Shown here: positions 6,227-55,152 of the stretch, piece after piece | Numbering within the stretch: position 1 is the stretch's first letter | Layout of the letters: every line of letters begins with the position of its first letter | NCBI RefSeq assembly: GCF_900107175.1 | Contig: NZ_FNOZ01000003.1 | Span: 124,001 to 188,000, forward strand | From: Modestobacter sp. DSM 44400 | GTDB taxonomy: Bacteria; Actinomycetota; Actinomycetes; Mycobacteriales; Geodermatophilaceae | Direction of reading: 5' to 3' | DNA: 64,000 nt | Translations under genes and position numbers: made by a program | The notes under the pieces: model-generated | The model's database searches: none | The model's input: the letters and a program-made list of their open reading frames with translations, nothing else | What the model was told of the DNA's origin: nothing

Positions 6227-6309
6227 CGTCCCTGCGGCCGTCGCCGGCCGGCCGCACCCCTCGGCTCGATCCCCGGCGGTGGGCATGCCATCATCGATGC
6301 AGCAGCACT

Positions 6310-35114: not shown

Positions 35115-35171
35115 GAAGGACCCCGTCCTCCCCACCCTTCGCACGCTCAGGGCGGGCTCCGGGACGGGGCC
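35115..35171 (+). repeat. 57-nt inverted-repeat element, copy 1
   Basis: The ends GACCCCGTCC (35119-35128) and GGACGGGGCC (35162-35171) pair over 9 of 10 positions; a 33-nt loop lies between. Two more elements of exactly the same length are at 48921-48977 (inverted) and 55096-55152. Identity to the third is 47 of 57. It lies 23 bp after the small coiled-coil gene and 33 bp before smc. Confidence 0.8.
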
Positions 35172-35190
35172 GGCAGTGCAGCCGCTGGAC

Positions 35191-35196
35191 TAGATT
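35191..35196 (+). promoter_or_regulatory. putative leaderless -10 box for smc
   Basis: TAGATT ends 8 nt before the GTG of smc, consistent with a transcript that starts at or next to the start codon. Confidence 0.5.
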
Positions 35197-35204
35197 GTGC
35201 TCCT

Positions 35205-38200
35205 GTGCATCTGTCTAGCCTGACGCTCAAGGGCTTCAAGTCCTTCGCGTCCGCCACGACGTTGCGCCTGGAGCCTGGCATCACCGCCGTCGTCGGCCCC
35301 AACGGTTCGGGCAAATCCAACGTCGTCGACGCCATCGCCTGGGTCCTCGGCGAGCAGGGCGCCAAGAGCCTGCGCGGCGGCAAGATGGAAGACGTCATCT
35401 TCGCCGGCACCGCCGGCCGTCCGGCGCTCGGCCGGGCCGAGGTGACCCTGACCATCGACAACACCGACGGTGCGCTCCCAATCGCGTACACCGAGGTGTC
35501 GATCACCCGCCGCATGTACCGCTCCGGGGAGAGCGAGTACGAGATCAACGGCGACAAGGTGCGGCTGCTCGACGTCCAGGAGCTGCTCAGTGACTCGGGC
35601 ATCGGCCGGGAGATGCACGTCATCGTCGGCCAGGGACAGCTGGACGCCGTGCTGTCCGGCCGCCCAGAGGACCGGCGTGCGTTCGTGGAGGAGGCGGCCG
35701 GCGTCCTCAAGCACCGCAAGCGCAAGGAGAAGGCGCTCCGCAAGCTCGACGCGATGCAGGCCAACCTCGACCGGCTGGCCGACCTGACCGCCGAGCTGCG
35801 CCGCCAGCTCAAGCCGCTGGGCAAGCAGGCCGAGGTGGCCCGCCGGGCCGCCGGGGTGCAGGCGGACCTGCGCGATGCCCGGCTGCGGCTGCTCGCCGAC
35901 GACCTGGTGCAGCTGCGCGACGCCCTGGACTCCGATGTCGCCGACGAGAACGCGGCCCGGGCGCGCCGGGCCACCGTCGAGGCAGCCCTCGGGACGGCGG
36001 CCGGCACCGAGTCGGCGCTGGAGACCCAGCTCGCCGCCGACGCCCCTCGGCTGGCCACCGCCCAGGACACCTGGCACCGGCTGTCCACCCTGGCCGAGCG
36101 CTTCCGCGGTGTCGGACAGCTCGCCGGCGAACGGCACCGCCACCTCACCGCCGTCGCCCCGGCCAGTGCCCCCGGCCGGGACCCCGACGCCCTGGACGCC
36201 GAGGCCGACCGGATCGAGGCCACCGAGCGCGAGCTGGCCGACAACCTCACCGCCGAGCGGTCCAGGCTGGCCGCCGCGGTGACCGCCCGCACCGAGGTCG
36301 AGCAGGCCCTCACCGACGCCGAACGGGCGCTGGTCGCCGCCGCCCGGGCGCTGGCCGACCGGCGCGAGCAGCTCGCCCGGCTCTCCGGTCAGGTGGCCGC
36401 CGGCCGGTCCCGGGCCGCCGCCGGGCAGGCGGAGATCGAGCGGCTGGCCGCCGCGGCCGCCGAGGCCGCCGACCGCGCCGAGACCGCCGCCGATCGGCTC
36501 GTCGAGCGGCGCGGGTCGCTGGACGACGCCGCCGACTCCGACCTCGGCCTGGTCACCGCGCACGCCGACGCGGTCACCGCGCACACCGCCGCCGTCCGGG
36601 CGGTGACCGAGCTGGCCGCGGCCGAGCGCTCCGCCGAACGGGACCGGGCCGGCTGGCTGGCCCGCCGCGACGCCCTCGCCCAGGGCCTGACTCCGGCCGA
36701 CGGCGCCGCGGTCGTGCTGGCCGGCGACCTGCCCGGGGTGCTTGGCCCCCTCGCCGAGTGCCTGCACGTCCGGACCGGGGACGAGGTGGCGATCGCCGCG
36801 GCCCTGGGCGGCATGGCCGATGCCGTCATCGTCGCCGGGGTCGCCGAGGCCGCGGACGCGCTCACCCACCTCAAGGACGGCGCCGGCGGCCGGGTCGGGC
36901 TGCTGGTCGCCGCCGGCCTGCCGCCGGTGACCCGGGACGGCTGGCCGGAGCTGCCGGCCGGGGCCTGCTGGGCGCTGGACCTGGTGGCGGCTCCTCCCGA
37001 GCTCGCCCCTGCGTTGGCCCGCGCGCTGGAGCGGGTGGCCGTCGTCGCCGACCTGCCCGCGGCGGTCGCCCTGCTCCGCACGCACCCCCGGGTCCGGGCG
37101 GTCACCGCCGACGGGGACCTGCTGGGCGCCGACTGGTCCCGCGGCGGCCAGCCCGACGCACCGTCCGGGCTCGAGCTGCGGGCCCGCGTCGACGAGGCCG
37201 CCGCCGAGCTGACCCAGGCGACCGCCGGCGCCGAGGACCTCGCCGAGCGGCTGGCCCAGGCTCGGCAGGCCGCCGCCGACCGGTCCGCCGACGTCGAGGC
37301 GGCGTTGGCCGCCCGGCAGGTCGGCGACCGGGCGCGTTCCGCGGTGGCTACCGAGCTGGCGGAGCTGGGGGCGGCGGCCCGGTCCGCGGTCGCCGAGGCC
37401 GAACGGACCGACGCCGCGCGGGTCCGGGCCGAGCAGGCATGGGAGCAGGCCGGTGCGGGGCTGATCGAGTGGGAGCAGCGGCTGGCCGAGGCCGAGGCCG
37501 CACCGATGGACGCCGAGCCGGCCCCCGACGAGCGGGACCGGCTGCGCGCCGCGGCCGGCGCCGCGCGGCAGGCCGAGACCGAGGCCCGGCTGGCGGTGCG
37601 CACCGCCGAGGAGCGTGCCCGCTCCCTGGCCGGGCGCGCCGAGTCGCTGCGCAGGCAGGCCCGCGCCGAGCGTGCGGCACGGGAACGGGCGGCCGCCGCC
37701 CGGGTGGCCCGGGAGCGTGGCGCCGGGGTGGCCGCCGGCGTCCAGGCCGGCGCCGAGGCCGTGCTCACCGCGTTGGCGACCTCGCTGGCCCGGGCCGAGG
37801 CCGAGCGGGAGGCCCTGGCCGAGGCCCGCACCGGGCGGGAGGCGCAGCTGCTCGTCGTCCGGGCGCAGGTGCGGGAACACACCGCCGAGCTGGACCGGCT
37901 CACCGACGAGGTGCACCGCGACGAGGTCGCCCGCGCCGAGCAGCGGCTGCGCATCGAGGCGCTGGAGGCGCGGGCCGCCGAGGAGTACGGCGTCGACCTG
38001 CCCACCCTGGTCGCCGAATACGGCCCGGCCGCGCTGGTGCCGCCCACCCAGGCGCAGGTCGCGGCCGCCGAGGCGGCTGGCGACCCCGAGCCGCAGCCGG
38101 TCCCCTACGACCGGGCCACCCAGGAACGGCGGGCGGCCCGCGCGGAGCGCGACCTCGCCACCCTGGGCAGCGTGAACCCCCTGGCCCTGGAGGAGTTCGC

Positions 38201-38771
38201 GGCGCTGGAGGAGCGGCACACGTTCCTGGCCACTCAGCTGGAGGACCTCAAGGCCACCCGGCGTGACTTGCTGACCGTCGTCCGCGAGGTCGACGCGCGC
38301 ATCCACGACGTCTTCGCCGCCGCGTTCGCCGACACCCAGCGGGAATTCACCGAGGTCTTCGCCACCCTCTTCCCGGGCGGGGAGGGGCGGATCTTCCTCA
38401 CCGACCCCGACGATCTGCTCACCACCGGCGTCGAGGTCGAGGCCCGGCCACCGGGCAAGAAGGTCAAGCGACTGTCGCTGCTGTCCGGCGGGGAGCGCTC
38501 GCTGACCGCCGTCGCGCTGCTGGTCGCCATCTTCCGGGCCCGGCCCTCGCCGTTCTACGTGCTCGACGAGATCGAGGCCGCCCTGGACGACGTCAACCTG
38601 GGCCGGTTGCTCACCCTCGTCGAGCAGCTGCGTGGCACCTCGCAGCTGATCGTCATCACCCACCAGAAGCGGACGATGGAGATCGCCGACGCCCTCTACG
38701 GGGTCAGCATGCGTGGCGACGGCATCACCGGGGTGATCAGCCAGCGGCTGCGGGAGCCCGACGTCGCCTGA
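35205..38771 (+). CDS. smc: chromosome segregation protein SMC
   Basis: A full-length SMC of 1188 residues. The N-terminal head has Walker A GPNGSGKSNVVDAIAWVLGE and the Q-loop region. Two long coiled coils, very Ala/Arg/Glu-rich, flank a hinge around residues 500-630 (LPGVLGPLAECLHV ... AALGGMADAVIV). The C-terminal head has the ABC signature LLSGGERSLTAVALL and Walker B YVLDEIEAALDDVN. It works with ScpA/ScpB as condensin. ftsY follows in mycobacteria; here an accessory island of about 4.3 kb intervenes. Confidence 0.98.
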   Translation: MHLSSLTLKGFKSFASATTLRLEPGITAVVGPNGSGKSNVVDAIAWVLGEQGAKSLRGGKMEDVIFAGTAGRPALGRAEVTLTIDNTDGALPIAYTEVSITRRMYRSGESEYEINGDKVRLLDVQELLSDSGIGREMHVIVGQGQLDAVLSGRPEDRRAFVEEAAGVLKHRKRKEKALRKLDAMQANLDRLADLTAELRRQLKPLGKQAEVARRAAGVQADLRDARLRLLADDLVQLRDALDSDVADENAARARRATVEAALGTAAGTESALETQLAADAPRLATAQDTWHRLSTLAERFRGVGQLAGERHRHLTAVAPASAPGRDPDALDAEADRIEATERELADNLTAERSRLAAAVTARTEVEQALTDAERALVAAARALADRREQLARLSGQVAAGRSRAAAGQAEIERLAAAAAEAADRAETAADRLVERRGSLDDAADSDLGLVTAHADAVTAHTAAVRAVTELAAAERSAERDRAGWLARRDALAQGLTPADGAAVVLAGDLPGVLGPLAECLHVRTGDEVAIAAALGGMADAVIVAGVAEAADALTHLKDGAGGRVGLLVAAGLPPVTRDGWPELPAGACWALDLVAAPPELAPALARALERVAVVADLPAAVALLRTHPRVRAVTADGDLLGADWSRGGQPDAPSGLELRARVDEAAAELTQATAGAEDLAERLAQARQAAADRSADVEAALAARQVGDRARSAVATELAELGAAARSAVAEAERTDAARVRAEQAWEQAGAGLIEWEQRLAEAEAAPMDAEPAPDERDRLRAAAGAARQAETEARLAVRTAEERARSLAGRAESLRRQARAERAARERAAAARVARERGAGVAAGVQAGAEAVLTALATSLARAEAEREALAEARTGREAQLLVVRAQVREHTAELDRLTDEVHRDEVARAEQRLRIEALEARAAEEYGVDLPTLVAEYGPAALVPPTQAQVAAAEAAGDPEPQPVPYDRATQERRAARAERDLATLGSVNPLALEEFAALEERHTFLATQLEDLKATRRDLLTVVREVDARIHDVFAAAFADTQREFTEVFATLFPGGEGRIFLTDPDDLLTTGVEVEARPPGKKVKRLSLLSGGERSLTAVALLVAIFRARPSPFYVLDEIEAALDDVNLGRLLTLVEQLRGTSQLIVITHQKRTMEIADALYGVSMRGDGITGVISQRLREPDVA

Positions 38772-38908
38772 CGACAGCCACGGGAGCATCGACCGAGCTC
38801 TGCGAGGAGGGAGCGGATCGGGGCGCGGGGTCAGGCCGGCGGGCACCGCCTGAGCCCGTCGAGGGCTGCAGCGAGGCCGTCACGTCGTTCGCGGCGTCGC
38901 CTCTCGGC

Positions 38909-39397
38909 TCAGGGCCGGTCCGGCGCGAGTCGGAGGCACGCGGTCACGGTCGCCAGGATCAGCAGGCCGGCGGCTACGTCGGTGGCGGTCGCCAGCCTGG
39001 CTGCGAGCAGGGCTCCGGCGACCAAGAGCGCGGCCGAGGCCGCCCCACCGATCCCTCGCAACGCGAGCAGCAGCGCCAGGTCCGGGGTGGCCGCACAGCC
39101 GAGCAGGCTGATCGTCGCCACCGCGGCGCAGCTCCGCAGCGTGGTCGTCAGCCCGACGCGCGCCAACAGCGCGGGGAGGCCCAGGGCGCCGGCCAGATAG
39201 CCGACCGCGTTGGCGGTCTCCAGCAGTCCGGCCTGGGCGTAGCTCCAGCCCAGCTCCGCCCGCATCGCCGGCAGCAGGACGCCGTAGCCGAACCGGGACA
39301 GTCCTAGCACGGTCGCCGCCAGGCTCAACATGATCGCTGCGCCGATCCATCGCCGGCCGGCGATGTCGGCGACCGGTGCGGTCGCGGGCGCGTCCAT
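38909..39397 (-). pseudogene. truncated MFS transporter (YbfB/YjiJ-type)
   Basis: A 162-residue frame with five to six hydrophobic helices. The N-terminal part is typical of YbfB/YjiJ-type MFS proteins (LGLSRFGYGVLLPAMRAELGWSYAQAGLLETANAVGYLAGAL). Family members have about 380-400 residues and 12 helices. Here the middle is missing: after LRGIGGAASAALLVAGALLAARL the sequence runs into what looks like a last helix (AAGLLILATVTACLRL) and stops. An internal deletion is the simplest reading. Confidence 0.7.
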
Positions 39398-39405
39398 CCG
39401 GCGGC

Positions 39406-39933
39406 CTACAGGTCCCGTGCCCAGTTCTGCCCGACGAGGTCGTGTCCGAAGCTGGCGTGGCGCTCCTCGTCGACGAGCTCGAACCCGGCCGCCACGTAGA
39501 TCCGGCGGGCCGAGGCCAGCGCGTCATTGGTCCACAGGGTCATGCGCCGGTAGCCGGCCGCCCGGGCGAAGTCCAGGCACGTGCCGACGAGGAGGCCCCC
39601 GGCACCGAGGCCGCGCGCAGCGGGATGGATAAGGAGAATCCGCAGCTGGGCGGTCGCCTCGTCCGCCGTCACGCAGAAGACGCACCCGGCGCGCTCGCCG
39701 TCGACCTCCGCGATCCAGGCGGCCTCCCTCGCCGGGTCGTCATCGCCGGCGTAGTCGGCCACGATGCGGGCCACCAGGGCTTCGAAGCTGGTGTCCCAGC
39801 CGAACTGCTCGGCGTAGACCTCGCCGTGCGCCATCACCACCCAGCCGAGGTCGCCCGGCCGTCCGAGCCGGCGGATCACGACCTGCGGAGGACCGCCCGC
39901 GGGTCGAAGACCCTGACCTCCCGACTGCACCAT
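39406..39933 (-). CDS. GNAT-family N-acetyltransferase
   Basis: A 175-residue acetyltransferase of the MarR-associated GNAT type (PGDLGWVVMAHGEVYAEQFGWDTSFEALVARIV). It has the acetyl-CoA loop HPAARGLGAGGLLVGTCLDFAR and the end LTLWTNDALASARRIYVAAGFELVDEE in family-typical form. The substrate is unknown. It is divergent from a TetR-type gene across a 64-bp gap with an operator-like repeat, so it is a likely target of that regulator. Confidence 0.88.
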   Translation of the reverse strand: MVQSGGQGLRPAGGPPQVVIRRLGRPGDLGWVVMAHGEVYAEQFGWDTSFEALVARIVADYAGDDDPAREAAWIAEVDGERAGCVFCVTADEATAQLRILLIHPAARGLGAGGLLVGTCLDFARAAGYRRMTLWTNDALASARRIYVAAGFELVDEERHASFGHDLVGQNWARDL

Positions 39934-39965
39934 GTCTGTTCCTCGCTCAATGCGCGCCCAACTGA

Positions 39966-39984
39966 CACAACTGTTTCAGTCGTG
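39966..39984 (+). promoter_or_regulatory. operator-like inverted repeat
   Basis: CACAACTG-TTT-CAGTCGTG is an inverted repeat matching at 7 of 8 positions per arm. It lies between the divergent GNAT gene and the TetR-family gene, where a TetR dimer could block both promoters. Confidence 0.55.
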
Positions 39985-39997
39985 CCAGCATGGCGGC

Positions 39998-40648
39998 ATG
40001 CGGGACCGGGAGGCAACCCCATCGGCACGACAGACGGAGTTGCTCGAAGCTGCCTACGGCTATGTCCTGCAGCATGGGCTGGGCGCTCTGTCGCTGCGGC
40101 CGCTCGCAGCCGCGATCGGATCGAGCCCTCGAGTTCTGCTCTACCTGTTCGGGAGCAAGGAGGGCCTGGTCCGGGCGCTGCTGGTACGTGCCCGCACCGA
40201 CGAACTGGACCTGCTCGCCCGGCTGCGTACGGGAGACCGACGGGACGACGGGAACGGAGCCGGGCTGGCCGAGGTCGCCGAACAGGTGTGGTCCTGGCTG
40301 GCGGCACCGGGACACCGGGACCTGCTGACCCTGTGGGTCGAGGGGTACGCGCGCTCCCTGGTCGATCCGGAGGGGCCGTGGGCCGGCTTCGCCCTCGCCA
40401 CCGTCGAGGACTGGCTCGCCGTGCTGGCCGGCGCGCAAGATCCCAGCCAGCGGCACACCGCGACCGGACGAGCGGAACGGACGCTCGCCCTGGCCGTGCT
40501 GCGCGGCGGACTGCTCGACCTGCTCGCCACCGGCGAGCTCGAACGGACGACCGCCGCGGTGCACCGGCACCTGACGGTGCTGGCCGGAGCCGACCGGCAG
40601 GGTCAGACGCCGGAGCGGACCCCGAGGTCGACCAGCAACGGATGGTGA
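39998..40648 (+). CDS. TetR-family transcriptional regulator
   Basis: A 216-residue regulator. The N-terminal HTH (about 10-55) reads RQTELLEAAYGYVLQHGLGALSLRPLAAAIGSSPRVLLYLFGSKEGLV, shown here in family order; the C-terminal ligand domain is divergent. The ATG at 39998 is chosen because the upstream in-frame stretch crosses the operator-like repeat. Its 3' end overlaps the convergent nuclease-fold gene by 46 bp. It probably controls itself and the GNAT gene (inference). Confidence 0.85.
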   Translation: MRDREATPSARQTELLEAAYGYVLQHGLGALSLRPLAAAIGSSPRVLLYLFGSKEGLVRALLVRARTDELDLLARLRTGDRRDDGNGAGLAEVAEQVWSWLAAPGHRDLLTLWVEGYARSLVDPEGPWAGFALATVEDWLAVLAGAQDPSQRHTATGRAERTLALAVLRGGLLDLLATGELERTTAAVHRHLTVLAGADRQGQTPERTPRSTSNGW

Positions 40649-41346
40649 TCGGAGCACGCCGAGCCGTCGAGCACCTGGGCCGCGGGAACGGTCACGCCCG
40701 CCGACACCCAGACCTGGTCGATCCGGACGTGCGGACGGCGGGCGGGGTGCGTGCGGCCCTCGTCGCGGTGCAGCGACCACCGGCCGCCCTGGTCGGCCCG
40801 CACCGAAGCCAGGGGCCAGGCGTCGGCGAACCGCTGGCGCAGTGCGTCGAGCTCCGGGGCACCGGCGTCGGCGTTGAGGTCACCGGCCACCACGCCGGCC
40901 TCGCCGGGTCCGGTGTGCAACTCCACGACCGCCGCGGCCTGGGCGGCCCGGTCGGCCGCCGACCGGGAGCTCAGGTGGGTGGTGGTCACCCACAGCGCGC
41001 AGCCGTTCAGCCGCACCCGGACGCGCAGGGCGCTGCGCGGCTCCCCGCCGCCGGGCAACAGGTGCACGGCGCGGTCCAGGACGGGCAGTCGGGACAGCAG
41101 CGCGTTGCCGTACTGCCGGCGCTCGGGCGTGCCCGGCCGGTCGATCGCCGGGCCCCAGGCCAGCCCCATGTCCAGCGCCCGAGCCAACAGCAGCGCCTGG
41201 TCGACCCCCTCGCTGCGCGGCCCGAAGTGCCGGTCGACCTCCTGAAGGCAGATCACGTCGGCGTCGGTCGAGGCCAGCAGCTGGGCCACCCGGGCCAGGT
41301 CGTGCCGGCCGTCGTCGCCCACGCCGTGGTGAACGTTGAACGTCAC
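40603..41346 (-). CDS. endonuclease/exonuclease/phosphatase family protein
   Basis: A 247-residue EEP-fold hydrolase. Motifs: VTFNVHHGVGDDG (Asn ligand), VICLQEVDRHF (catalytic Glu), THLSSRSA, VVAGDLNADAGAPEL (D-L-N) and CSDHHPLLVDL (terminal S-D-H). Members cleave DNA, phosphodiesters, phosphoinositides or sphingomyelin. The GTG at 41344-41346 begins the fold exactly; a longer frame upstream has no supported start. It lies 38 bp after the PhoD-like phosphatase gene on the same strand. Confidence 0.85.
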   Translation of the reverse strand: MTFNVHHGVGDDGRHDLARVAQLLASTDADVICLQEVDRHFGPRSEGVDQALLLARALDMGLAWGPAIDRPGTPERRQYGNALLSRLPVLDRAVHLLPGGGEPRSALRVRVRLNGCALWVTTTHLSSRSAADRAAQAAAVVELHTGPGEAGVVAGDLNADAGAPELDALRQRFADAWPLASVRADQGGRWSLHRDEGRTHPARRPHVRIDQVWVSAGVTVPAAQVLDGSACSDHHPLLVDLGVRSGV

Positions 41347-41384
41347 CAGGCGAACCGGGACGGCGGCCGGGCCTGGCGGGCGGG

Positions 41385-43046
41385 TTACGACAGCTCGGCG
41401 TCCAGCACCTGGTCGAAGTGCGGGCGCCCGTCGTCGTCCCGGCTGGTGGCGAACAGCCGGAACCGGGCATTGCGGCCCTCGAGCACCAGCTCGCCCAGTT
41501 CGTTGCCGAAGAACGGACCCGCCTCCTTCTCCCACCGCAGCTGGGACGTGCCCACCCGGGCGAGCCCGCCGATGCCCCGGGTGATCGCCCGGGCCCATCG
41601 GCTCCAGCCGACCTTGAAGCCGATCTCGATGGCGTGCGGAGCCTGGTTGTGCAGCGGGGAGACGGTGAGTTGGTGCACCCTGCTACGCAGCCCACCGGGC
41701 CGCACCAGCTCGGCGGCGTAGGCGTGGTGGACGTCGCCGGAGAGCACCAGGGCGGTGGCCGGTGCCGCGCCGAAGTCGCCGCGGGCGGCGGCGACCAGGG
41801 TGCGGCCCAGCCGCTCGAAGGACTGCCCGAAGGCGGCCCAGTGCTCGAGGTCGGCGGCCTGGCGCAGCTTCTCGGCCAGCTTCCCCAGCGGCCGGCCGGC
41901 GTGCCGGGCGGCGAGCGTCTCGTTCCAGCGCTCGATGTGGTGGACGGCGTGTGGCAGCAGCCAGGGCAGCGAGGTGCCGATGAGCAGGTGATCCACGCCG
42001 TCCTCGACCGAGCGCTGGACCGCGGCGTCGATCCAGGCGAACTCGTCGTCGTCGAGCATCTTTCGGTCGTTCTCGGTCAGCACCCGGCCGGCCCGGCTGT
42101 CGACCATGATCAACCGGGCGGAGCCCCAGTGCCGCACGTAGCTCCAGCGCACCGACTCCGGCTCCTCGTCGGCGGCCCGGGCCATCTCGTCCAGCATCGG
42201 GCCGGCGTCGTCGGACCCGTCGTCCCGGGTGCTGATCGCCTGCCAGGTCACATTCTGCGACAACTCGTGCGGGGACAGGTTGCCCAGGTGCTGGTAGACC
42301 CAGTAGCTGGTCAGGCCGCCGCAGATGCGCTTCTTCCACCAGTCGGTCGGCGTCACCTGCGCGCGCCAGGTCGCCGAGGTGTTCCAGTCGTCGATCATCT
42401 CGTGGTCGTCGAAGACCATCGAGGACGGGATGGTCGACATCAGCCAGCGCACCTGCGGGTCGCCCCAGGACTCCGCGTAGAGCCGGGTGTACTCCTCGAA
42501 GTCCGAGGCCTGGGCGTCGGTGCCCGGCTCCAGGTCGCGGCGCAGCGCCAGCCAGTTCTCCGTCCCCGGCGCCACCTCGTCGGCGTAGACCTGGTCGCCC
42601 AGCAGGACCAGGGCGTCGGGCCACTCGCCCTCGGGGGTGTCGGAGATCTGCCGGGCGTAGCTGTCCAGCGCGTCCGGCGGGATGCCGTCGCGCACGTCGA
42701 CCGTGGTGGGCGTGGCGTAGCGGCACGAGCCGAAGGCGATCCGGAAGGGCCCCGGGCGACCGACGGTGCGGATGCGGCTGGGCGGGAGGGCCGAGTGCGG
42801 CTGCGGCCAGACCGGTTGCCCGTCCAGGTGCACCTCGTAGGGCGTGGTGCTGCCGGGCTCCAGGTCCTCGACGACGACCAGGGCGTAGTGGTGGCCGTGC
42901 ACGCAGAACGTGCGGGCACTGCGGCCGAGCACGGTGACCTCGCACGGCCGGTCGGTTTCCACCCAGATGGTGGCCGAGACGGGGTCGACGTGGCGCAGCG
43001 CGGGGCCGAGGAGCAGAAGGGGCCGGGTGCCGGGGGTCTCGGGCAT
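41385..43046 (-). CDS. PhoD-like alkaline phosphatase, apparently cytoplasmic
   Basis: A 553-residue protein with an N-terminal beta domain (about 1-95) and a PhoD-type metallophosphatase domain: FGSCRYA, LVLLGDQVYADE, VFDDHEMIDDWN, LIGTSLPWLLPH and VLSGDVHHAYAAEL. Classical PhoD is Tat-exported, but no signal peptide or twin Arg is present here. Related cytoplasmic proteins are widespread in actinobacteria; substrates are probably phosphodiesters. It is divergent from ftsY and upstream of the EEP-fold gene. Confidence 0.87.
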   Translation of the reverse strand: MPETPGTRPLLLLGPALRHVDPVSATIWVETDRPCEVTVLGRSARTFCVHGHHYALVVVEDLEPGSTTPYEVHLDGQPVWPQPHSALPPSRIRTVGRPGPFRIAFGSCRYATPTTVDVRDGIPPDALDSYARQISDTPEGEWPDALVLLGDQVYADEVAPGTENWLALRRDLEPGTDAQASDFEEYTRLYAESWGDPQVRWLMSTIPSSMVFDDHEMIDDWNTSATWRAQVTPTDWWKKRICGGLTSYWVYQHLGNLSPHELSQNVTWQAISTRDDGSDDAGPMLDEMARAADEEPESVRWSYVRHWGSARLIMVDSRAGRVLTENDRKMLDDDEFAWIDAAVQRSVEDGVDHLLIGTSLPWLLPHAVHHIERWNETLAARHAGRPLGKLAEKLRQAADLEHWAAFGQSFERLGRTLVAAARGDFGAAPATALVLSGDVHHAYAAELVRPGGLRSRVHQLTVSPLHNQAPHAIEIGFKVGWSRWARAITRGIGGLARVGTSQLRWEKEAGPFFGNELGELVLEGRNARFRLFATSRDDDGRPHFDQVLDAELS

Positions 43047-43129
43047 GTCCGACAGCCTGCCCGATCCACGGGGCCACCGGGTGCGACGGTGCCCGGCCGG
43101 GGACGTGCAGGGGCTGGGAGACTGGCGGC

Positions 43130-44338: not shown

Positions 44339-44403
44339 TCCGCTGAGGGGTCACTGAGGCCCCTGAGGGCCGCGCAACAGGACTGGAACACGGGGGCCGA
44401 CAC

Positions 44404-44430
44404 GCAGTGGTGAGTTCACCACTGCGAAAC
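44404..44430 (+). promoter_or_regulatory. palindrome with GlnR-like half sites upstream of amt
   Basis: GCAGTGGTGA-GT-TCACCACTGC (44404-44425) is a perfect 10-bp inverted repeat with a 2-nt centre, followed at once by GAAAC (44426-44430). Read otherwise, TTCAC-N6-GAAAC resembles the GlnR a/b-site consensus (GTnAC-N6-GAAAC) expected before amt-glnB-glnD. A second GAAAC lies at 44449-44453. The identity of the regulator is inference. Confidence 0.5.
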
Positions 44431-44523
44431 ACGTCCGCGCCGCCTGCGGAAACACGGTGTCGGCACGGTTGTCCCCGCGTCGCCGTCCCCGGCAGCGCCT
44501 TCCCGACTCCTCAGGAGGTTGCC

Positions 44524-46226
<1,703 letters not shown>

Positions 46227-46236
46227 CCTCCGGGGA

Positions 46237-48620
46237 ATGGCAACCGTGCTCGACACCGACGTACTGCCAGGCCTGAGCCGCACTGAACGGGGGGCGGTGC
46301 TCGAGAGCTGGCTGACCGGTCTGCTGACCGAGGCGGTGGCCGGCACGCCGCGGCCCGCGCCGCGCCGTGGTGCGGCCTCCGTCCCGGACGACACGGGGGT
46401 GGCGCTGGTGGCCGTGGGCAGCCTCGGACGCCGGGAGCTACCGCCGCACGGGGACCTGGACCTGGTCCTGGTGCACGATGGCCGCGCCGGGATCGGGGCG
46501 ATCGCCGACGCACTCTGGTACCCGATCTGGGACGCCGGCCTGCGGCTGGACCACTCGGTGCGCACCGTCGGGGAAGCGGTGTCGGTCGCCGCGGGAGACG
46601 TCAAGGCCGGCCTCGGTCTGCTCGACGTCCGGCTGGTCGCCGGCGACGCCGCACTCGCCGCGACCCTGCGCAGCGCCACGCTGTCCTCCTGGCGCCAGCA
46701 CGCGAACGAGCTGCTGCCGCAGCTGCGCGACCTGCGGCGCACCCGGGGCCGGCAGGTCGGCGAGCTGGGCTTCCTGTTGGAGCCTGACCTCAAGGAGGCC
46801 TACGGCGGGCTGCGGGAGGGGCAGGTGCTGCGGGCGCTGGCCGCGGCCCAGTTGGCCGACGAGCCGCCGGCCGATGCGGGGGAGGCCTACGCCTTCCTGC
46901 TCGACGTCCGGGACGCCCTGCGCCGGTCCAACGGCCGGGCCGGCGACGCCCTCGTCCGGCAGGCGCAGCGCCCGGTCGCCGAGGCGCTCGGGATGGCCGA
47001 CGACGACGTCCTGCTGCGCCAGGTCAGCCTGGCCGGACGGCGGCTCGCCTTCGTCGCCGACGAGACCTGGCGCCGGGTGGATGCCGCGATGGTGCGCCGT
47101 CCCCGCTCGCGCTACCGCCGGGTCCGCCGCGAGCCGCTCGCCGAGGGGCTGGTGCGGCAGGGCGACGAGGTCGTGCTCGCCCGCGACGCGCGTCCGGCCG
47201 TCGATCCGGGCTGGTGCTGCGCGGCGCCGCCGCGGCCGCCCGGGCCGACCTGCTGCTGTCGCCCTACACGCTCAAGGTGCTGGCCGCGCACGCTCCGCCG
47301 CTGCCCGAGCCGTGGCCGCCGGAGGTCCGCTGGTCCTTCCTGCGGCTGCTGGCCAGCGGGCGCAGTGCGGTGCCGGTTCTGGAGCAGCTGGACCAGGAGG
47401 GGCTGCTGTCCCGGATGCTCCCCGAGTGGGACCGGGTGCGCTCGCTGCCCCAGCGCCATCCGTGGCACCGGTTCACCGTCGACCGGCACCTGGTCGAGGC
47501 CGCGGCTGCGGCGGCGGAGCTGACCCGCGACGTCGACCGGCCCGACCTGCTGCTGGTCGGGGCCCTGCTGCACGACATCGGCAAGGGGTGGTCCGGCGAC
47601 CACAGCGTCGTCGGGGAGGTCATCGCCGCGGAGATGGCCGCCCGGATGGGCTTCTCCCCGCCCGACGTCGCGGTGCTGGCCGCGCTGGTGCGCCACCACC
47701 TGCTGCTGCCGGCGACCGCCATCCGGCGCGACATCGACGACCCGGCGACCATCGAGCGGGTCGCCGCCACCATCGGCGGGGACCCGGGGCTGCTGCAGCT
47801 GTTGCACGCGCTGGCCCAGGCCGACGGCGCCGCCACCAGCACGTCGGCGTGGTCGCCGTGGAAGGCGCACCTGGTCGCGGCGCTGGTGGCCCGGGTGCAC
47901 GCGCACCTGGTCGCCGCGCCGGCGCCCGGGCCGGTGCTCGAACCGACCGAGCCGCAGGTCACTGCATCCACGCCGGGGGTGCCGGGGAGCGGTGGAACGG
48001 TCACCGTCGGGGTGCAGAACGTTGCCGACGGGCAGCAGGTCACCTTCGGGGCCCCCGACCGGCCCGGCCTGTTCAGCCGCTGCGCGGGGGTGCTGGCGCT
48101 CAACCAGCTCGACGTCCGGGCCGCGAGCATCTCCGTCGCGGACGGGCGGGCCACGTCGATCTTCGCCGTCCGGCCGCGGTTCGGCCGGGCACCGGTGCCC
48201 GAGATCCTCGCCGACGGTCTGCGGGCTGCGCTGGAAGGCACGTTGCCGCTGGCGGAGCGGCTGCGGCAGCGGGAGGTCGACTACCGCCAGGACGGCGCAC
48301 GGTCGGCTGCGCCGCGGGTCTCCTGGCACGATGCGGAGGTGGCCGACGCGGCCAGCACCATCGTCGAGGTGCGCGCCGGCGACCGGGCCGGGCTGCTCTA
48401 CCAGCTCACCACCGCGCTCGCCGACGAGGGACTGGACGTCACCTCGGCCCGGATCGAGACGCTGGGTGCTGACGCGCTGGACTCCTTCTACGTCTGCGAT
48501 CCGGGGGGCACGGGGATGGATGCGGAGCGGCGACGGCGGGTCGAGGTGGCGCTGACCGCCGCCGCCCGCGGGGTCGCACCAGACCTGGCCGCGGAGGGCA
48601 AGGCCGACACGCCGGGCTGA
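46237..48620 (+). pseudogene. glnD: PII nucleotidyltransferase GlnD, frameshifted
   Basis: The locus encodes a GlnD of normal layout: nucleotidyltransferase domain (VAVGSLGRRELPPHGDLDLVLVH), GlnD helical domain, HD domain (LLVGALLHDIGKG) and two C-terminal ACT domains (DRPGLFSRCAGVLA; DRAGLLYQLTTALA). The frame is broken near 47206-47210. Up to DARPAVDP it is read in one frame; GLVLRGAAAAARADLLLSPYTLKVLA continues in the next. One extra G in the GGG run at 47208-47210 would restore a single frame of about 795 residues. This is either a recent mutation or a sequencing error. Start ATG at 46237, 10 bp after glnB. Confidence 0.85.
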
Positions 48621-48712
48621 GGTCTCCGAATCCGTCGTACCCCCGTGCCACCGTGGACGGCAGCCGGTGGGGAGCGCCCCGCCGAGCTGATCGCGGACAA
48701 GGGGGACGTGTC

Positions 48713-48901
48713 GTGGAGCACCCGACGTGGCCCTGCCCCACCTGTGGGCAGGACACCGAGTTCGAGCAGCCGACCTGCATCGACGGGCACACCGAGGACG
48801 GCGGGGAGTGCCCAGAGTGGGCGTGCGTCCACTGCGGCACGGCGATGATCAGCGGCGACATCGCACCGGCCGCGGCCGAGGTCTGGCACCGCGCCGCCTG
48901 A
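48713..48901 (+). CDS. small double CxxC (zinc-ribbon-like) protein
   Basis: A 62-residue protein with CPTCG near the N-terminus and CVHCG in the middle, the spacing of a zinc ribbon. Two further Cys (TCIDGH, GECPEW) and a conserved-looking acidic centre (HTEDGGECPEWAC) lie between. The GTG has a purine-rich GGGGGA region upstream. I recognise no family; nucleic-acid or protein binding is possible. It lies alone between glnD and ffh, and its stop is followed by the 57-nt repeat region. Confidence 0.68.
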   Translation: MEHPTWPCPTCGQDTEFEQPTCIDGHTEDGGECPEWACVHCGTAMISGDIAPAAAEVWHRAA

Positions 48902-48920
48902 AGAAGGACCTCTCTGCCCC

Positions 48921-48977
48921 GGCCCGCTCCTGGGGCCCGGCCCGAGCGTGCGAGGGTCGGGGAGGAGCGGGTCCTTC
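48921..48977 (-). repeat. 57-nt inverted-repeat element, copy 2 (inverted)
   Basis: Read on the minus strand it begins GAAGGACCCGCTCC and ends GGAGCGGGCC, exactly 57 nt like the other two. At two stem positions it has GC where the others have CG, and both partners on the other arm have changed too, so pairing is kept. An outer inverted repeat (48906-48917 with 48996-49006) encloses it, making a larger hairpin upstream of ffh. Confidence 0.75.
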
Positions 48978-49133
48978 CCTTCGCGGCGGGCCCCTGCAGA
49001 GGAGCCATTACGCTGGGGATGGTGGCGTGACGGCCCCGGGGTGGCCCCGGGAGCCCGAGCCGTGCTGCCCGGTTGCCGGCTCCGCCCGGCAGGCCGGCCG
49101 GCGGCTGCACGCCTGACTGTTTGAGGACGTGTT

Positions 49134-50696
49134 GTGTTCGAGACCCTCTCCGACCGCCTGGACAAGGTCTTCACCGGTCTGCGCGGCAAGGGCCGGCTCT
49201 CCGACGAGGACATCGACGCCACGGCGCGGGAGCTCCGCATCGCGCTGCTCGAGGCCGACGTCGCGCTGCCCGTCGTCCGCTCGTTCATCGCGGCGGTCAA
49301 GGAGCGCGCCCGGGGGGCGGAGGTCTCGCAGGCGCTGAACCCGGCGCAGCAGATCATCAAGATCGTCAATGAGGAGCTGGTCGGCATCCTCGGCGGGGAG
49401 ACCCGGCGGATCCGGTACGCCAAGACGGCGCCGACGGTGATCATGCTCGCCGGGCTGCAGGGCGCCGGCAAGACCACGCTGGCCGGCAAGCTGGGCCGCT
49501 GGCTGAAGTCCCAGGGCCACACGCCACTGCTGGTGGCCGCCGACCTGCAGCGCCCCAACGCCGTCCAGCAGCTGTCGGTCGTCGCCGGGCAGGCCGGGGT
49601 CGACGTCTTCGCCCCTGAGCCGGGCAACGGCGTCGGCGACCCGATCGCGGTGGCCGCGGCGTCCATCGACCACGCCCGCCGCACCATGCACGACGTCGTC
49701 GTCGTCGACACCGCCGGCCGGCTGGGCATCGACGCGGAGCTGATGGCCCAGGCCGCCGGCATCCGTGACGCCGTGCATCCCGACGAGACGCTGTTCGTGG
49801 TCGACGCGATGATCGGCCAGGATGCCGTCACCACGGCGACGGCGTTCCAGGAAGGCGTCGGCTTCACCGGCGTCGTCCTGACCAAGCTCGACGGCGACGC
49901 CCGCGGCGGTGCCGCGCTGTCGGTGCGGCACGTGACCGGCCAGCCGATCATGTTCGCTTCCACCGGTGAGAAGCTCGCCGACTTCGACGTCTTCCACCCC
50001 GAGCGGATGGCCTCGCGCATTCTGGGGATGGGCGACGTGCTCACCCTCATCGAGCAGGCCGAGCAGGCGTTCGACGCCGACCAGGCCGAGGCGATGGCGA
50101 ACAAGCTCGCTTCCCGGCAGGGCTTCACCCTCGAGGACTTCCTCGAGCAGATGCTGACCATCCGCAAGATGGGGCCGATCGCCAACCTGCTCGGCATGCT
50201 CCCGGGGGCGGGTGCGATGAAGGAGCAGCTCAAGCAGGTCGACGACCGCGACCTGGACCGGACTGCGGCGATCATCCGGTCGATGACCCCGACCGAGCGG
50301 GTCACCCCGAAAATCATCAACGCCTCGCGCCGGGTGCGGATCGCGAACGGCTCGGGTGTCAGCGTCACCGACGTCAACCAGCTGCTGGAGCGGTTCGGCC
50401 AAGCCCAGAAGATGATGGGCCAGATGGCCGGCAGCATGGGCCTGCCCGGCATGGGCCCGATGTCGAAGAAGCAGCGCGGCCGGCAGATGCAGGCCAAGAG
50501 CAGCAAGAAGGGCAAGGGGAAGGGCAAGGGCGGCCCGGCCCGCCGGCCGATCGGCGCCCCGGGCGGCATGCCTGGCGGTGGATTCCCCGAGGGCGGGATG
50601 CCTGGTGGGATGCCTGGCCTGCCGCCGGGGCAGGGACTGCCGGACCTGACGAAGCTCCGCTTCGACACCCCCGGGGACGAGCGGCCCGGCCGGTGA
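49134..50696 (+). CDS. ffh: signal recognition particle protein Ffh (SRP54)
   Basis: A 520-residue SRP GTPase that binds signal sequences and 4.5S RNA. The NG domain has GLQGAGKTTLAGKLG, DLQRPNAVQQL, DTAGRLGIDAEL and TKLDGDARGG. The M domain (about 300-440) carries the Met-rich signal-binding groove and the RNA-binding SRRVRIANGSGVSVTDVNQLL. A Lys/Gly then Gly/Met/Pro-rich tail ends the protein. The GTG start is preceded by TTGAGGA. The end overlaps the amidohydrolase gene by GTGA. Confidence 0.97.
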   Translation: MFETLSDRLDKVFTGLRGKGRLSDEDIDATARELRIALLEADVALPVVRSFIAAVKERARGAEVSQALNPAQQIIKIVNEELVGILGGETRRIRYAKTAPTVIMLAGLQGAGKTTLAGKLGRWLKSQGHTPLLVAADLQRPNAVQQLSVVAGQAGVDVFAPEPGNGVGDPIAVAAASIDHARRTMHDVVVVDTAGRLGIDAELMAQAAGIRDAVHPDETLFVVDAMIGQDAVTTATAFQEGVGFTGVVLTKLDGDARGGAALSVRHVTGQPIMFASTGEKLADFDVFHPERMASRILGMGDVLTLIEQAEQAFDADQAEAMANKLASRQGFTLEDFLEQMLTIRKMGPIANLLGMLPGAGAMKEQLKQVDDRDLDRTAAIIRSMTPTERVTPKIINASRRVRIANGSGVSVTDVNQLLERFGQAQKMMGQMAGSMGLPGMGPMSKKQRGRQMQAKSSKKGKGKGKGGPARRPIGAPGGMPGGGFPEGGMPGGMPGLPPGQGLPDLTKLRFDTPGDERPGR

Positions 50697-51796
50697 CCGG
50701 CCTGCCCGCCCCGGACCTGCCCGACCTGCACCTGGCCGGGGTGCTGCTGCCCGAGGGCGACGACCGCGACCTGTGGGTGCACGGCGGGCGGATCACCTTC
50801 GAACCGGTGCCGGGCGCCGAGACGGTCAGCCGCGACGGTTTCGTCGTCCCGGGGCTGGTCGACGCGCACTGCCACGTCGGGATCTCCCGCGGCGGCGGGC
50901 GCGTCCCGACCCTGGCCGGTCTGCGGGAGCAGGCGCTCAGCGAGCGGGCCGCCGGGGTGCTGGCACTGCGCGACTGCGGGTCGCCGGTCGACACCCGCGC
51001 CCTGGACGACGACCCGGAGCTGCCCCGGATCATCCGGGCCGGCCGGCACCTCGCCGCCCCCCGTCGCTACATCCCCGGCCTTGCCCTCGAGATGGAGCCG
51101 GGCGACCTGGTGGAGGCCGTGCGGACGCAGGCCCGCCGCGGTGACGGCTGGGTCAAGCTGGTGGGCGACTGGATCGACCGCGGCGTCGGGGACCTGGCGC
51201 CGGAGTGGCCGGCCGACGTGCTCGCCGAGGCGATCGCGGCGGCGCACGCGGAGGGCGCCCGGGTCACGGCGCACACCTTCGGCACCGACGCGCTCCCCGG
51301 GCTCATCGGGGCCGGCATCGACTGCATCGAGCACGGCACCGGCCTGACCGAGGAACTGGTCGGGGAGATGGCCGCCCGCGGCACGGCCGTCGTCCCGACG
51401 CTGGTCAACGTGGAGAACTTCCCGGGCTTCGCGACGGCGGGGGAGAGCAAGTTCCCGGCGTACGCCTCGACGATGCGGCGGCTGTACGCCGGGTCCGGCG
51501 CGGTGGTGCGCGCGGCGTACGAGGCCGGCGTCCCAGTCTTCGCCGGGACCGACGCCGGTGGTGGCATCGACCACGGCCGGGTCGCCGACGAGGTCCGGGC
51601 GCTGCACCGGGCCGGCCTGCCCGCTGAGGCGGCGCTGGCCGCGGGCTCCTGGGCGGCGCGCACCTGGCTGGGGTTGCCCGGCATCGAGGAGGACGCCGAG
51701 GCCGATTTGGTGGTCTACGAGACCGATCCGCGCAAGGACCTTGACTCGCTACAGCGACCGCAGCGGATGATCCTGCGTGGTCGCGTGGTCGCGTAG
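50693..51796 (+). CDS. metal-dependent amidohydrolase family protein
   Basis: A 367-residue TIM-barrel amidohydrolase. Metal ligands: H-x-H in VDAHCHVG, Lys in GWVKLVGDW, His in VTAHTFGTDAL and CIEHGTG, and the catalytic Asp in AGTDAGGG. It resembles imidazolonepropionase/prolidase-like members. Its substrate is unknown. The same gene follows ffh in mycobacteria (Rv2915c position). GTGA coupling to ffh. Confidence 0.87.
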   Translation: MTGLPAPDLPDLHLAGVLLPEGDDRDLWVHGGRITFEPVPGAETVSRDGFVVPGLVDAHCHVGISRGGGRVPTLAGLREQALSERAAGVLALRDCGSPVDTRALDDDPELPRIIRAGRHLAAPRRYIPGLALEMEPGDLVEAVRTQARRGDGWVKLVGDWIDRGVGDLAPEWPADVLAEAIAAAHAEGARVTAHTFGTDALPGLIGAGIDCIEHGTGLTEELVGEMAARGTAVVPTLVNVENFPGFATAGESKFPAYASTMRRLYAGSGAVVRAAYEAGVPVFAGTDAGGGIDHGRVADEVRALHRAGLPAEAALAAGSWAARTWLGLPGIEEDAEADLVVYETDPRKDLDSLQRPQRMILRGRVVA

Positions 51797-52031
51797 ACCG
51801 CTCCGTAGCGAGCGCCAGCAACCGGGTCGCAGGGTGTGGATCAGTGTGTCGCTTGTTCCTGTCTCGCCCGTGGTCAGCACCGGCGGCTCGTCCATTCCGA
51901 CGTCGAGTCGCGGCGCCTGCTCGCCGACCCACCCGGGGCGCCCCGGGCCGTCGCCGACCTGGTCTTCTCGCGGTGGGCGAGCGGCTTCCTGGCGGTCATC
52001 CGGGATTGAGCCACGCTGGTCTCGCCCGAGA
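51797..52031. other. spacer with no supported gene
   Basis: No gene with a plausible start and family is visible. One plus-strand frame (51875-52009) reads like a protein C-terminus (RLLADPPGAPRAVADLVFSRW) but has no start or recognisable family. Together with the P1-peptidase remnant downstream this looks like decaying DNA. Confidence 0.4.
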
Positions 52032-52477
52032 TCACCGCACGGCGTGCCGGGCGACCTCAGTGGCCAGCACGCCCAGTGCGATCGTGTCGAGGTCGTGGGG
52101 CCGTCGTCGGTGCGCTGACGGTCAGAGGACGTCGCCGTCCTCAGGGGTGTGGAACGGGTTGATGGCGCGAGCCATGCGGCGTGCACGTAACGGCCCAGCT
52201 GCGCCAGTCCCCGATCGTCCAGCTGGGCGTCGGCGACCACCGGGGTGAGCATGGTGTTGTCCCTGTGCCGGGCCGCTCGCGCGCTGCCGAGAGTTGCTTC
52301 GGCGCGATCGGCTGCGGCGTGCCGACGACCCGTGATTGGGTCGAGGTGTCCGCGCACCACCCGTCCGCTGCGGTCGTGGACGGCGCCAAGGGATAGTTGA
52401 CCACGGTGAGCACGGCCACCGTCACCGGCCCGGCTGTCGGGCAGCGGGACCGCACCGGTGAGCTTGCTGTCGGCCAC
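52032..52477 (-). pseudogene. remnant of a P1 (DmpA/S58) family peptidase
   Basis: Pieces of the C-terminal half of a P1-family aminopeptidase occur in order on the minus strand in different frames. VTVAVLTVVNYPLG comes first, then AVHDRSGRVVRGHLDPITGRRH and RDNTMLTPVVADAQLDDRGLAQL, then ARAINPFHTPEDGDVL. An in-frame TGA (52122-52124) follows, and finally DLDTIALGVLATEVARHAVR to a stop at 52032-52034. At least two frameshifts and one nonsense codon are needed to explain it. The N-terminal half is absent. Assignment is from remembered family patterns. Confidence 0.62.
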
Positions 52478-52529
52478 GAGATCAGTGTGCGAGGGGAACC
52501 GTGATGTCGGCGACCAGGGAGTCGTGGGG

Positions 52530-52955
52530 TCAGGACACCAGCCGGACCGGTAGCCCGAGGTCAGCCGCGTTGCGGGCCAATGGGTTGTCCAAGGTCCACA
52601 GGGCTGTACCGAGCCGTTCTGCCAGGCATATGTAGGTCGAGTCGGTGGCGTGCCGTCTGCGGAGACGAGTGGTGATGGCAGCCACTTCCCGGCCGTCCCG
52701 AATCAGCTCGAACGGATGCAGGACCAGCCCTAGGGCCGTGAGATCGGTCCAGATCGCGTTCACGTCACTGAGCTCGAGCGCACCGTCGAACACCAGGCGG
52801 GCGAGAACGTCGGCGACCTCGTACGGCAATACGGCGGGGGCGTGCATGTCCTCACCGGCGTTCATCCAGCTCTGCAGCTGTGTTTGGACGGCATCCTGTC
52901 GTTCGTCAGCGACGACCACGGCGATGATGACGCTGGCGTCGACAACCACGCTCAC
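52530..52955 (-). CDS. PIN-domain toxin, VapC-like
   Basis: A 141-residue PIN-domain protein. The conserved acidic residues are visible: Asp in VVVDASVI, Glu in LPYEVADVL, Asp in HATDSTYICLAERLG and Asp in LWTLDNPLARN. VapC toxins are Mg-dependent RNases that cut tRNA or rRNA. The GTG start overlaps the stop of the upstream antitoxin-like gene by 4 bp (GTGA), the usual VapBC layout. Confidence 0.85.
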   Translation of the reverse strand: MSVVVDASVIIAVVVADERQDAVQTQLQSWMNAGEDMHAPAVLPYEVADVLARLVFDGALELSDVNAIWTDLTALGLVLHPFELIRDGREVAAITTRLRRRHATDSTYICLAERLGTALWTLDNPLARNAADLGLPVRLVS

Positions 52956-53212
52956 CGGTGCGGGTCGAGCGCGTCCCGGGCGTCGGCGACCAGCGCCACG
53001 GCGTCACCCGGGGTCCGCTGCTGAGACCGGGCCACCAGCCGGTCGAGCGCCGTTCGAGCGTTCTCGCGGCCTGTAGCGGACACGTCCGCGCTGAGGCCCG
53101 CGTGTACCAGCATGCGGGCCAGCGTGCCTGGGCGGACCCGAAGTTGCCCGGCCTGCTTCGCCAACTCAGCGTGGTCCGCCTCGTCGAGGCGAACGGTGAT
53201 GGCCCTGGTCAT
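52952..53212 (-). CDS. antitoxin-like protein paired with VapC
   Basis: An 86-residue protein. It starts MTRAITVRLDEADHAELAKQA, a ribbon-helix-helix-like beginning that would bind DNA as a dimer; an Ala/Arg-rich C-terminus follows, suited to wrap the toxin. The ATG at 53210-53212 is chosen over a longer frame that runs into the proS promoter. Overlap with the PIN gene supports a toxin-antitoxin pair; autoregulation is inferred. Confidence 0.8.
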   Translation of the reverse strand: MTRAITVRLDEADHAELAKQAGQLRVRPGTLARMLVHAGLSADVSATGRENARTALDRLVARSQQRTPGDAVALVADARDALDPHR

Positions 53213-53345
53213 GACTGTCAGACTACTTGCACGGCACAGAGCGATGCGTTTCGCATCGCCACAAGAGTGCGCACGGCTACCGGCCCGGCACGACGTGAGA
53301 AACCCGCTGGCCGTGGTGTGAGTCCCTAGGGCGACAATCAGCACC

Positions 53346-55094
53346 GTGTTGTTGCGGATGTCCTCCCTGTTCCTGCGCACCCTGCGCGATGATCCGGCCG
53401 ATGCCGAGGTCCCCAGCCACCGCCTGCTCGTGCGCGGCGGGTACATCCGGCGGGCCGCGCCGGGTGGCTTCACCTGGCTGCCGCTGGGCTGGCGGGTGTT
53501 CCGCAACGTCGAGCGCGTCGTCCGCGAGGAGATGGACGCGATGGGTGCGCAGGAGGTGCACTTCCCGGCGTTGCTGCCCCGCGAGCCCTACGAGGCGACC
53601 GGCCGGTGGACCGAGTACGGCGACAACGTCTTCCGGCTCAAGGACCGTCGCGGCAACGACTTCCTGCTCGGCCCCACCCACGAGGAGATGTTCACGCTCC
53701 TGGTGAAGGACCTCTACGGCTCCTACAAGGACCTGCCCGTCTCGCTCTACCAGATCCAGACCAAGTACCGGGACGAGGCGCGGCCCCGGGCCGGGCTGTT
53801 CCGCGGCCGCGAGTTCACCATGAAGGACAGCTACTCCTTCGACGTCGACGACGCCGGGCTGGACCGCTCCTACGCCGCGCACCGCGATGCCTACATCAGG
53901 ATCTTCGACCGGCTCGGCCTGGACTACGTGATCGTCTCGGCGATGTCCGGGGCGATGGGCGGGTCCAGGAGCGAGGAGTTCCTGCACCCGACCGCGATCG
54001 GCGAGGACACCTTCGTGCGCTCGCCCGGCGGCTACGCGGCGAACGTGGAGGCGGTCACCACCGTCGTCCCCGACTCCGTCCCGTTCGACGGGCTGCCCGA
54101 GGCGCACGTCGAGGACACCCCGGACACCCCGACCATCGACAGCCTGGTGGCCGTGGCGAACGAGCGGTTCCCGGACGCCGGGTACACCGCTGCGTCCACG
54201 CTGAAGAACGTCGTGGTGACCCTGGCGCACCCCGACGGCACCCGGGGACCGCTGGTGATCGGCCTGCCCGGCGACCGGGAGGTCGACGCCAAGCGACTGG
54301 AGGCGCAGGTCGCCCCGGCTGAAGTGGAGCCGTTCACCGACTTCGCCGCCCACCCCGACCTGGTCCGCGGCTACATCGGACCGCAGGTGCTGGGCACCGA
54401 GGGGAAGTCGGGCATCCGCTACCTGGTCGACCCCCGCGTCGTCCCCGGTACGCGCTGGATCACCGGGGCCAACGAGGCCGGCAAGCACGTCTTCGACCTG
54501 GTCGCCGGCCGGGACTTCAGCTGGGACGGCGTCGTCGAGGCCGCCGAGGTGCTTCCCGGTGACCCCGCGCCCGACGGCTCGGGACCGCTGGAGCTGGCCC
54601 GCGGCGTGGAGATGGGTCACATCTTCGCCCTGGGTCGCAAGTACGCCGAGGCGCTGGACCTGAAGGTGCTCGACGAGAACGGCAAGCTGGTCACCGTGAC
54701 CATGGGCTCCTACGGGGTCGGGGTATCCCGCGCCGTCGCTGCCATCGCCGAGTCCACGCACGACGAGCTGGGGCTGGCCTGGCCGCGGGAGATCGCCCCC
54801 GCCGACGTGCACCTGGTCGCCACCGGCAAGGACCCGGCGATCTTCGAGGCCGCCGAGGCCCTCGCCGGCGAGCTGGTCGCCGCCGGGCTCACCGTGCTGT
54901 TCGACGACCGGCCGAAGGTCTCGCCCGGGGTCAAGTTCAAGGACGCCGAGCTGCTCGGGATGCCCACGATCGTGACCGTGGGCCGCGGGGTCGCCGAGGG
55001 CGTGATCGAGCTGCGGGACCGGGTCACCGGGGAGCGCACCGAGGTGCCGGTGGCCGACGCGGCCAGCTCGGTCCTCACCGCCGTCCGCGGCTGA
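53346..55094 (+). CDS. proS: prolyl-tRNA synthetase
   Basis: A bacterial-type class II ProRS of 582 residues: [24 protein letters not shown] at the N-terminus, motif 2 around [25 protein letters not shown], and an editing INS insertion (about 230-390, containing TLKNVVVTL and GYIGPQVLG). Motif 3 is [17 protein letters not shown], followed by an anticodon-binding C-terminus. The GTG at 53346 fits the family N-terminus; an ATG 4 codons later is possible. Confidence 0.96.
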
Positions 55095-55095
55095 A

Positions 55096-55152
55096 GAAGG
55101 ACCCCGTCCTCCTCACGCCTCGCAAGCTCGGCGCGAGCCTCTGGACGGGGCC
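55096..55152 (+). repeat. 57-nt inverted-repeat element, copy 3
   Basis: GAAGGACCCCGTCC...GGACGGGGCC, 57 nt, beginning 1 bp after the proS stop. It has the same arms as the element at 35115-35171; differences are confined to the loop (10 of 57 positions). In this place it could act as the proS transcription end. Confidence 0.8.

Follow-up and report, generated by a model that had tools for sequence, protein, structure and literature searches.

Which kind of element is a structured 57-nt repeat that recurs between the genes of an actinobacterium? The window analysed, a stretch of 64,000 nucleotides of Modestobacter sp. DSM 44400 (contig NZ_FNOZ01000003.1, positions 124,001 to 188,000 of the forward strand), holds three such elements, for which the original prediction offered a mobile unit of the repetitive extragenic palindromic (REP) or miniature inverted-repeat transposable element (MITE) kind, a reusable terminator or a small RNA. 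Probably the element represents a new REP-type family of interspersed palindromic DNA in Geodermatophilaceae that was copied or moved without a known REP transposase. Copy number, structure, covariation, location, a fixed spacing to stop codons and same-site differences between species were observed directly, and no Y1/HUH transposase of the kind of the REP-associated tyrosine transposases (RAYT) was detectable in the genomes searched.

The three elements cover 35115-35171 (plus strand), 48921-48977 (minus strand) and 55096-55152 (plus strand). Each measures exactly 57 nt in the sequence, as predicted. A covariance model matched them with 81, 69.5 and 85.9 bits, respectively; the E-values of the three copies were 4.6e-18, 6.6e-17 and 3e-14. 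All begin with GAAGGACCC and end with GGGCC. The model, R1, was built from 42 copies of the same genome including those of the window, thus the independent test lies elsewhere, in the genome-wide matches and the outgroup loci. The inverted element is real, but it forms only the inner part of a 104-nt composite at 48903-49006 (plus strand) that had been overlooked: the outer element, 48903-48920 and 48978-49006 in the sequence, is interrupted by the copy in opposite orientation. The next-best match in the window, 6184-6226 with an E-value of 0.0017, is without the inner hairpin, a plain stem directly behind one of three consecutive tRNA genes (5988-6382).

Few further copies would have spoken against a repeat family. 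BLAST with one copy yielded 44 matches in the genome and the covariance model at least 146, obtained from the best 150 of 6742 candidates scored. The general description of a REP, palindromic and extragenic with more than 100 copies per genome, thus applies. On 863 kb, four contigs and the window, 64 matches were present; four of 21-24 bits were dropped and 60 were kept at 33.9 bits or more. Scaling leads to about 350 copies in the 5.0 Mb genome, a density that may be slightly high as the contigs were chosen for being long and known to hold copies. Counts per genome are lower bounds, with the best 150, 85 or 25 candidates scored, and R1 misses diverged copies. Matches were present in 32 of 59 related genomes, the Modestobacter genome included: 23 of 23 in its own genus, 9 of 12 in the rest of the family, which places the repeat in nine of the twelve genera of Geodermatophilaceae sampled, and 0 of 24 in other families. 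Among 200 genomes drawn from the order, 31 had matches; three of these, each with one or two copies, belong to two other families. Named relatives belonging to the family or close to it contributed 15 loci, 7 of which (Modestobacter, Blastococcus, Geodermatophilus) contained 13 matches in total, and an outgroup of 65 loci (1.24 Mb) gave no match to the model at E ≤ 0.1. Copy number is patchy: within the genus g11, one genome had a single match and another at least 85.

Other repeats accompany the family. Genome G063, a relative with only one copy of the present element, contains a different repeat family of about 110 nt with inverted-repeat parts (L267:8220-8327, L271:8625-8733, L278:13819-13925), a picture in which each lineage would have repeat families of its own. 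Another interspersed repeat, about 65 nt long and unrelated to the element, contains CCCACCTCCGGTGCCGGAGCGGAACGGCTACGCCGTGCTGTCGAGC and occurs in the window (21784-21847) and elsewhere in the Modestobacter genome at C111:26666-26730, C104:79585-79648 and C104:108733-108798; among 82 repeat regions of the 863 kb, 31 had no overlap to the present element. In a relative with a one-contig genome, the region from 1.8 to 3.25 Mb (G007:C1) had 12 of the 146 copies listed, about 38 being expected. For the whole of this contig, 88 of the 146 listed copies fall on what would be the leading strand if the origin is placed at position 1 and the terminus at 2.6 Mb, which is not decisive for a replication-strand bias.

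The copies share a common architecture: a foot GAAG, an outer stem of the GACCCCGTCC/GGACGGGGCC type, an internal loop, an inner stem and a 10-nt loop, TCGCANGCTC, in which 8 of 10 positions are fixed in 96-101 of 105 copies. The terminal inverted repeat of 10 positions proposed originally is present, but its second pair is a conserved A.C mismatch (82 of 105 copies); the inner stem has an A.C mismatch in 59 of 105. In the inverted copy, the change from CG to GC at two adjacent positions of the stem was found together with the matching change in the other arm. Such compensation is general. Alignment A1, prepared with MAFFT from 42 of 52 copies found (half, merged and diverged copies were left out), contained 56 two-sided versus 4 one-sided stem changes, counted on a structure that was written by the analyst from the copies themselves. 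The covariation score was reached by none of 500 shuffles and dropped from 0.224 to at most 0.062 when the pairing partner was shifted. In an alignment of 105 copies fitted to the covariance model, 270 two-sided changes faced 15 one-sided changes. The excess of paired over unpaired substitutions that the prediction depended on is therefore present, and the claim of compensatory changes is right and strong.

As an argument for selection on RNA, the compensation is not proof by itself. The other 16 pairs comprised 1570 Watson-Crick cells, 15 U.G, 17 C.A and 26 A.C, 13 of the latter at one inner pair. If an RNA of the element strand were selected, U.G would be expected to be tolerated far more readily than C.A, but for C-G pairs both were equally rare; in addition, copies differ wholesale at the same site between close species. 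Folding z-scores of the three window copies on both strands were -0.81, -1.08, +1.12, -0.15, -0.93 and -1.90, those of the composite -3.11 and -0.99. The evidence for the structure is the covariation, not the folding energy. A small regulatory RNA encoded at many places would suit the covarying stem and the nearly fixed loop, but it is hardly conceivable for some hundreds of dispersed copies with strong differences among close species, and a search of the window at the Rfam gathering score yielded three tRNAs only and no family match for the element.

The composite recurs. The same architecture was present at 14 of 15 further places, which had been fetched for their resemblance to it; 12 of the 15 lie behind a TGA, and the outer stems vary in pairs too. 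Tandem, half and nested copies were observed at L019:2139-2234, L020:2139-2233, L016:7709-7866, L036:2119-2224 and L018:12493-12549, with the second copy beginning at the loop end of the first.

The genomic position is highly selective. With gene calls and intergenic spacers from the analyst's own simple caller, the 60 elements were assigned to 25 convergent, 26 tandem sense, 7 tandem antisense and 2 divergent spacers, compared to 113 convergent, 541 tandem and 112 divergent gene pairs; a predicted gene was overlapped by two elements. Stops were accepted for open frames of at least 50 codons with a GC content at third codon positions above 0.75. A stop codon ended exactly 1 nt before 28 of the 60 elements versus 15 of 4000 random intergenic placements, and with the interval widened to -8 to +6 around the 5' end, stops were present for 41 of 60 versus 227 of 4000. 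Counting both ends, 47 of 60 copies had a qualifying stop. Together with the non-divergent location of 58 of 60 copies, this agrees with the location typical for REPs. No qualifying 5' stop was found for 19 copies, four of which have a TGA at the usual place that fails the frame test.

In the window, the prediction of nearby stop codons holds insofar as each element has an upstream stop, but the distances are unequal. The composite starts 1 nt past the TGA (48899-48901) of a small open frame of 62 codons (48713-48901, plus strand) with a weak likeness to a zinc-binding family, scoring under the family cut-off. The copy at 55096 likewise follows 1 nt past the TGA (55092-55094) of proS, the gene of proline--tRNA ligase (53346-55094, plus strand). 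At 35115, the TGA (35089-35091) lies 23 nt upstream, and smc, identified by NCBIfam TIGR02168, starts 33 nt downstream.

The registration extends to relatives. Pooled with four related genomes, 103 of 108 copies could be anchored (five could not); a TGA was close in 78 of these, and exactly 4 nt separated TGA from GGACC in 64. The base preceding position -7 on the GGACC side, mostly the T of TGA, was C in 66 of 78 cases. The foot consensus before GGACC is TGA-N-RAA; of the 25 copies that lack TGA, fewer than half have a GTAG-like foot. Within the Modestobacter genome, C preceded the TGA in 27 of 30 exact cases versus 427 of 695 TGA stops. The 863 kb contain 2009 intergenic TGAs that are not stops, 719 of them CTGA, a part of which may terminate genes that were not called; thus the sequence alone does not account for the placement behind stops. 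Of 22 loci in other genera and families, 4 were read in the wrong orientation and excluded; 7 of 18 usable copies were placed exactly 1 nt past a stop, including one copy in each of three other-family genomes, and 8 of 18 were without such a stop.

A position behind stops and the avoidance of divergent spacers would also be expected of an RNA module reused at the 3' ends of genes, either a terminator, perhaps bidirectional, or a barrier to 3' exonucleases, that is selected behind stops and exchanged as a cassette. This possibility, which we hold to be doubtful but worth weighing, gains from several observations. The net tandem gap was at least 33 nt in all 26 tandem-sense cases, 33 % of the tandem gaps of the genome being below 20 nt, and in 13 of 60 copies a stop was present at each end. 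In the three window copies, folding is 4-7 kcal/mol more favourable on the strand opposite to the upstream gene, and the conserved A.C mismatches read G.U on that strand, thus selection on an RNA of the opposite strand may be at work. The opposite-strand tail, CTTCNTCA, has 3.26 T in 8 positions versus a background of 1.06. On the other hand, the sense side has 1.29 T in 8, U.G is about as rare as C.A among departures from C-G pairs, and species differ fast at housekeeping genes, all of which speaks against the module. A canonical U-tract terminator was rejected on the tail composition, at least 5 T in 8 being present in 0 of 108 sense and 2 of 108 opposite tails; the reusable terminator of the original prediction is thus not supported in a U-tract form, as a U-tract is lacking on the sense side and weak on the other. 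Terminator scans, designed for loops of 3-8 nt, did not flag the copies, but they are blind to the 10-nt loop and were not counted. A term-seq study in Streptomyces describes three classes of transcript 3' ends as well as bidirectional ones (PMC8269248), hence an unusual terminator role may exist at copies of the element. That short operon gaps and divergent spacers are avoided is compatible with a terminator-like effect as well as with purifying selection.

The REP-type family is further characterized by differences between close species. Syntenic DNA of four genomes, 200 kb from each, was compared; the ffh region was 93.9-96.5 % identical and the flanks of the sites 78-100 %, mostly above 90. 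At 21 fully comparable sites (three of 24 were without one or two species and left out), the element was present in one species at ten, in two at two, in three at three and in all four at six; presence meant a profile score of at least 4 bits, and a few 'empty' sites contained short remnants, visible by eye, that were left unscored. At 2 of 24 sites a copy was inverted. One convergent spacer presented four stem variants in four species, one of them inverted, all fitting between two stops. By eye, the junction differed between TAG and TGA among species at six sites, not always along with the element. Behind proS, the element of the window is absent in most relatives; in two or three, different or inverted copies occupy this position or its vicinity. 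Stepwise paired change in copies inherited in place had mixed signs, judged by eye only. At the site G013:59755, genome G018 contains a possible remnant with the two outer arms joined and the middle lost (TGAAGAAGGACCCCGGGGGTCC), resembling, possibly, what a deletion of the hairpin would leave.

Several observations weigh against copying or moving as a REP-type unit. Empty sites had no consistent target duplication by eye, and whole spacers were often replaced. Sites occupied in one species may be losses in the other three. The domain PF01797 (Y1_Tnp) was not detected in the Modestobacter genome or in 56 genomes of the family, in a search whose controls matched in 5 of 14 genomes. Inspection by eye of the proteins encoded between close copies in 14 stretches of the Modestobacter genome revealed no transposase, a library search of these not having been made. 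Finally, a plain insertion model fails to explain the stop registration, given the 719 non-stop intergenic CTGAs.

With PF01797 in 0 of 56 family genomes and none in the Modestobacter genome, a RAYT or IS200-type transposase was rejected as the mover, and the arrangement of a RAYT-mobilised REP or REPtron, a RAYT gene flanked by repeats, was not found. The prediction of a mobile REP/MITE-like unit survives in its REP part, by copy number, dispersal, location at gene 3' ends, presence/absence and replacement, and is not supported for a strict MITE, as neither a parent transposase nor a consistent target duplication was seen. A MITE in the strict sense would be a cut-down classical transposon with terminal inverted repeats, moved by the DDE transposase of its parent. 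It would be short and dispersed, with inverted-repeat ends and presence/absence, as here, but the ends vary freely in pairs and are not conserved as transposase sites. In view of this and of the target sites, a MITE is very unlikely; a parent transposon was not searched for systematically.

Most of what is known about REPs comes from Proteobacteria, and RAYT transposases are usually held responsible for their spread. Other interspersed repeats at or in genes, with uncertain movers, are the enterobacterial repetitive intergenic consensus (ERIC), the Rickettsia palindromic elements and the mycobacterial interspersed repetitive units (MIRUs), which are likened to the present element by description, not by sequence. 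In Di Nocera et al. (2013, PMC3733652), REPs carrying a GTAG or CGTC tag are 20-40 bp long and lie near the 3' ends of open reading frames in convergent or unidirectional spacers; the ends of GTAG REPs often supply the stop codon, and CGTC REPs are without a dedicated transposase. The word stem 'actinobacter' is absent from the main text of that article. The present element shares with these REPs, as described there, the palindromic nature, the high copy number, the spacer types, the location at 3' ends and the occurrence of dimers and composites. It differs by its 57 nt, two stacked stems, a fixed 10-nt loop, the foot GAAG and the 1-nt registration to TGA; as a tagged REP of 20-40 bp with an unpaired motif at one end it does not qualify, having the foot TGA-N-RAA. 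The substrate of TnpA-REP is a single-stranded REP hairpin that contains a bulge and is preceded by a motif (PMC8266576). Similar to RAYT REPs and their paired forms (REPINs) are the hairpin with an internal irregularity, the preceding foot and the two-element composites with an inverted partner; unlike them, the present family lacks a detectable Y1_Tnp in 56 family genomes and its composite is nested instead of consisting of two neighbouring REPs. In the accessible part of the open PMC literature, no description of the present repeat was found.

As a mechanism for the REP-type family, a structured hairpin with a freely covarying double stem, a fixed 10-nt loop, the conserved A.C mismatch and the GAAG foot would be copied or inserted at new places and exchanged at old ones, persisting mainly between genes at 3' ends. 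By analogy, it may spread in single-stranded form, the hairpin being recognised by an enzyme of a different kind for which loop and foot would be the recognition sites, and (C)TGA may belong to the target or to the unit that is copied. The fixed stop spacing could arise if the unit carried its TGA and was tolerated only in register, if the gene-end context selected the target, or if selection maintained a function there. An extended variant, that the hairpin is delivered at a fixed distance to translation stops as such and not merely to a TGA sequence, guided by the gene-end context of translation or transcription, able to bring its own stop and independent of a known REP transposase, appears unlikely to us.

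The element adds an abundant, fast-changing REP-like family to the genomes of high-GC actinobacteria, in which the RAYT transposase domain was not detected and the registration to stop codons is sharp. It also calls for caution, since paired changes among dispersed copies need not mean selection on RNA. With filled, empty, replaced and inverted sites side by side in close species, the spread of transposase-less REPs becomes directly testable.

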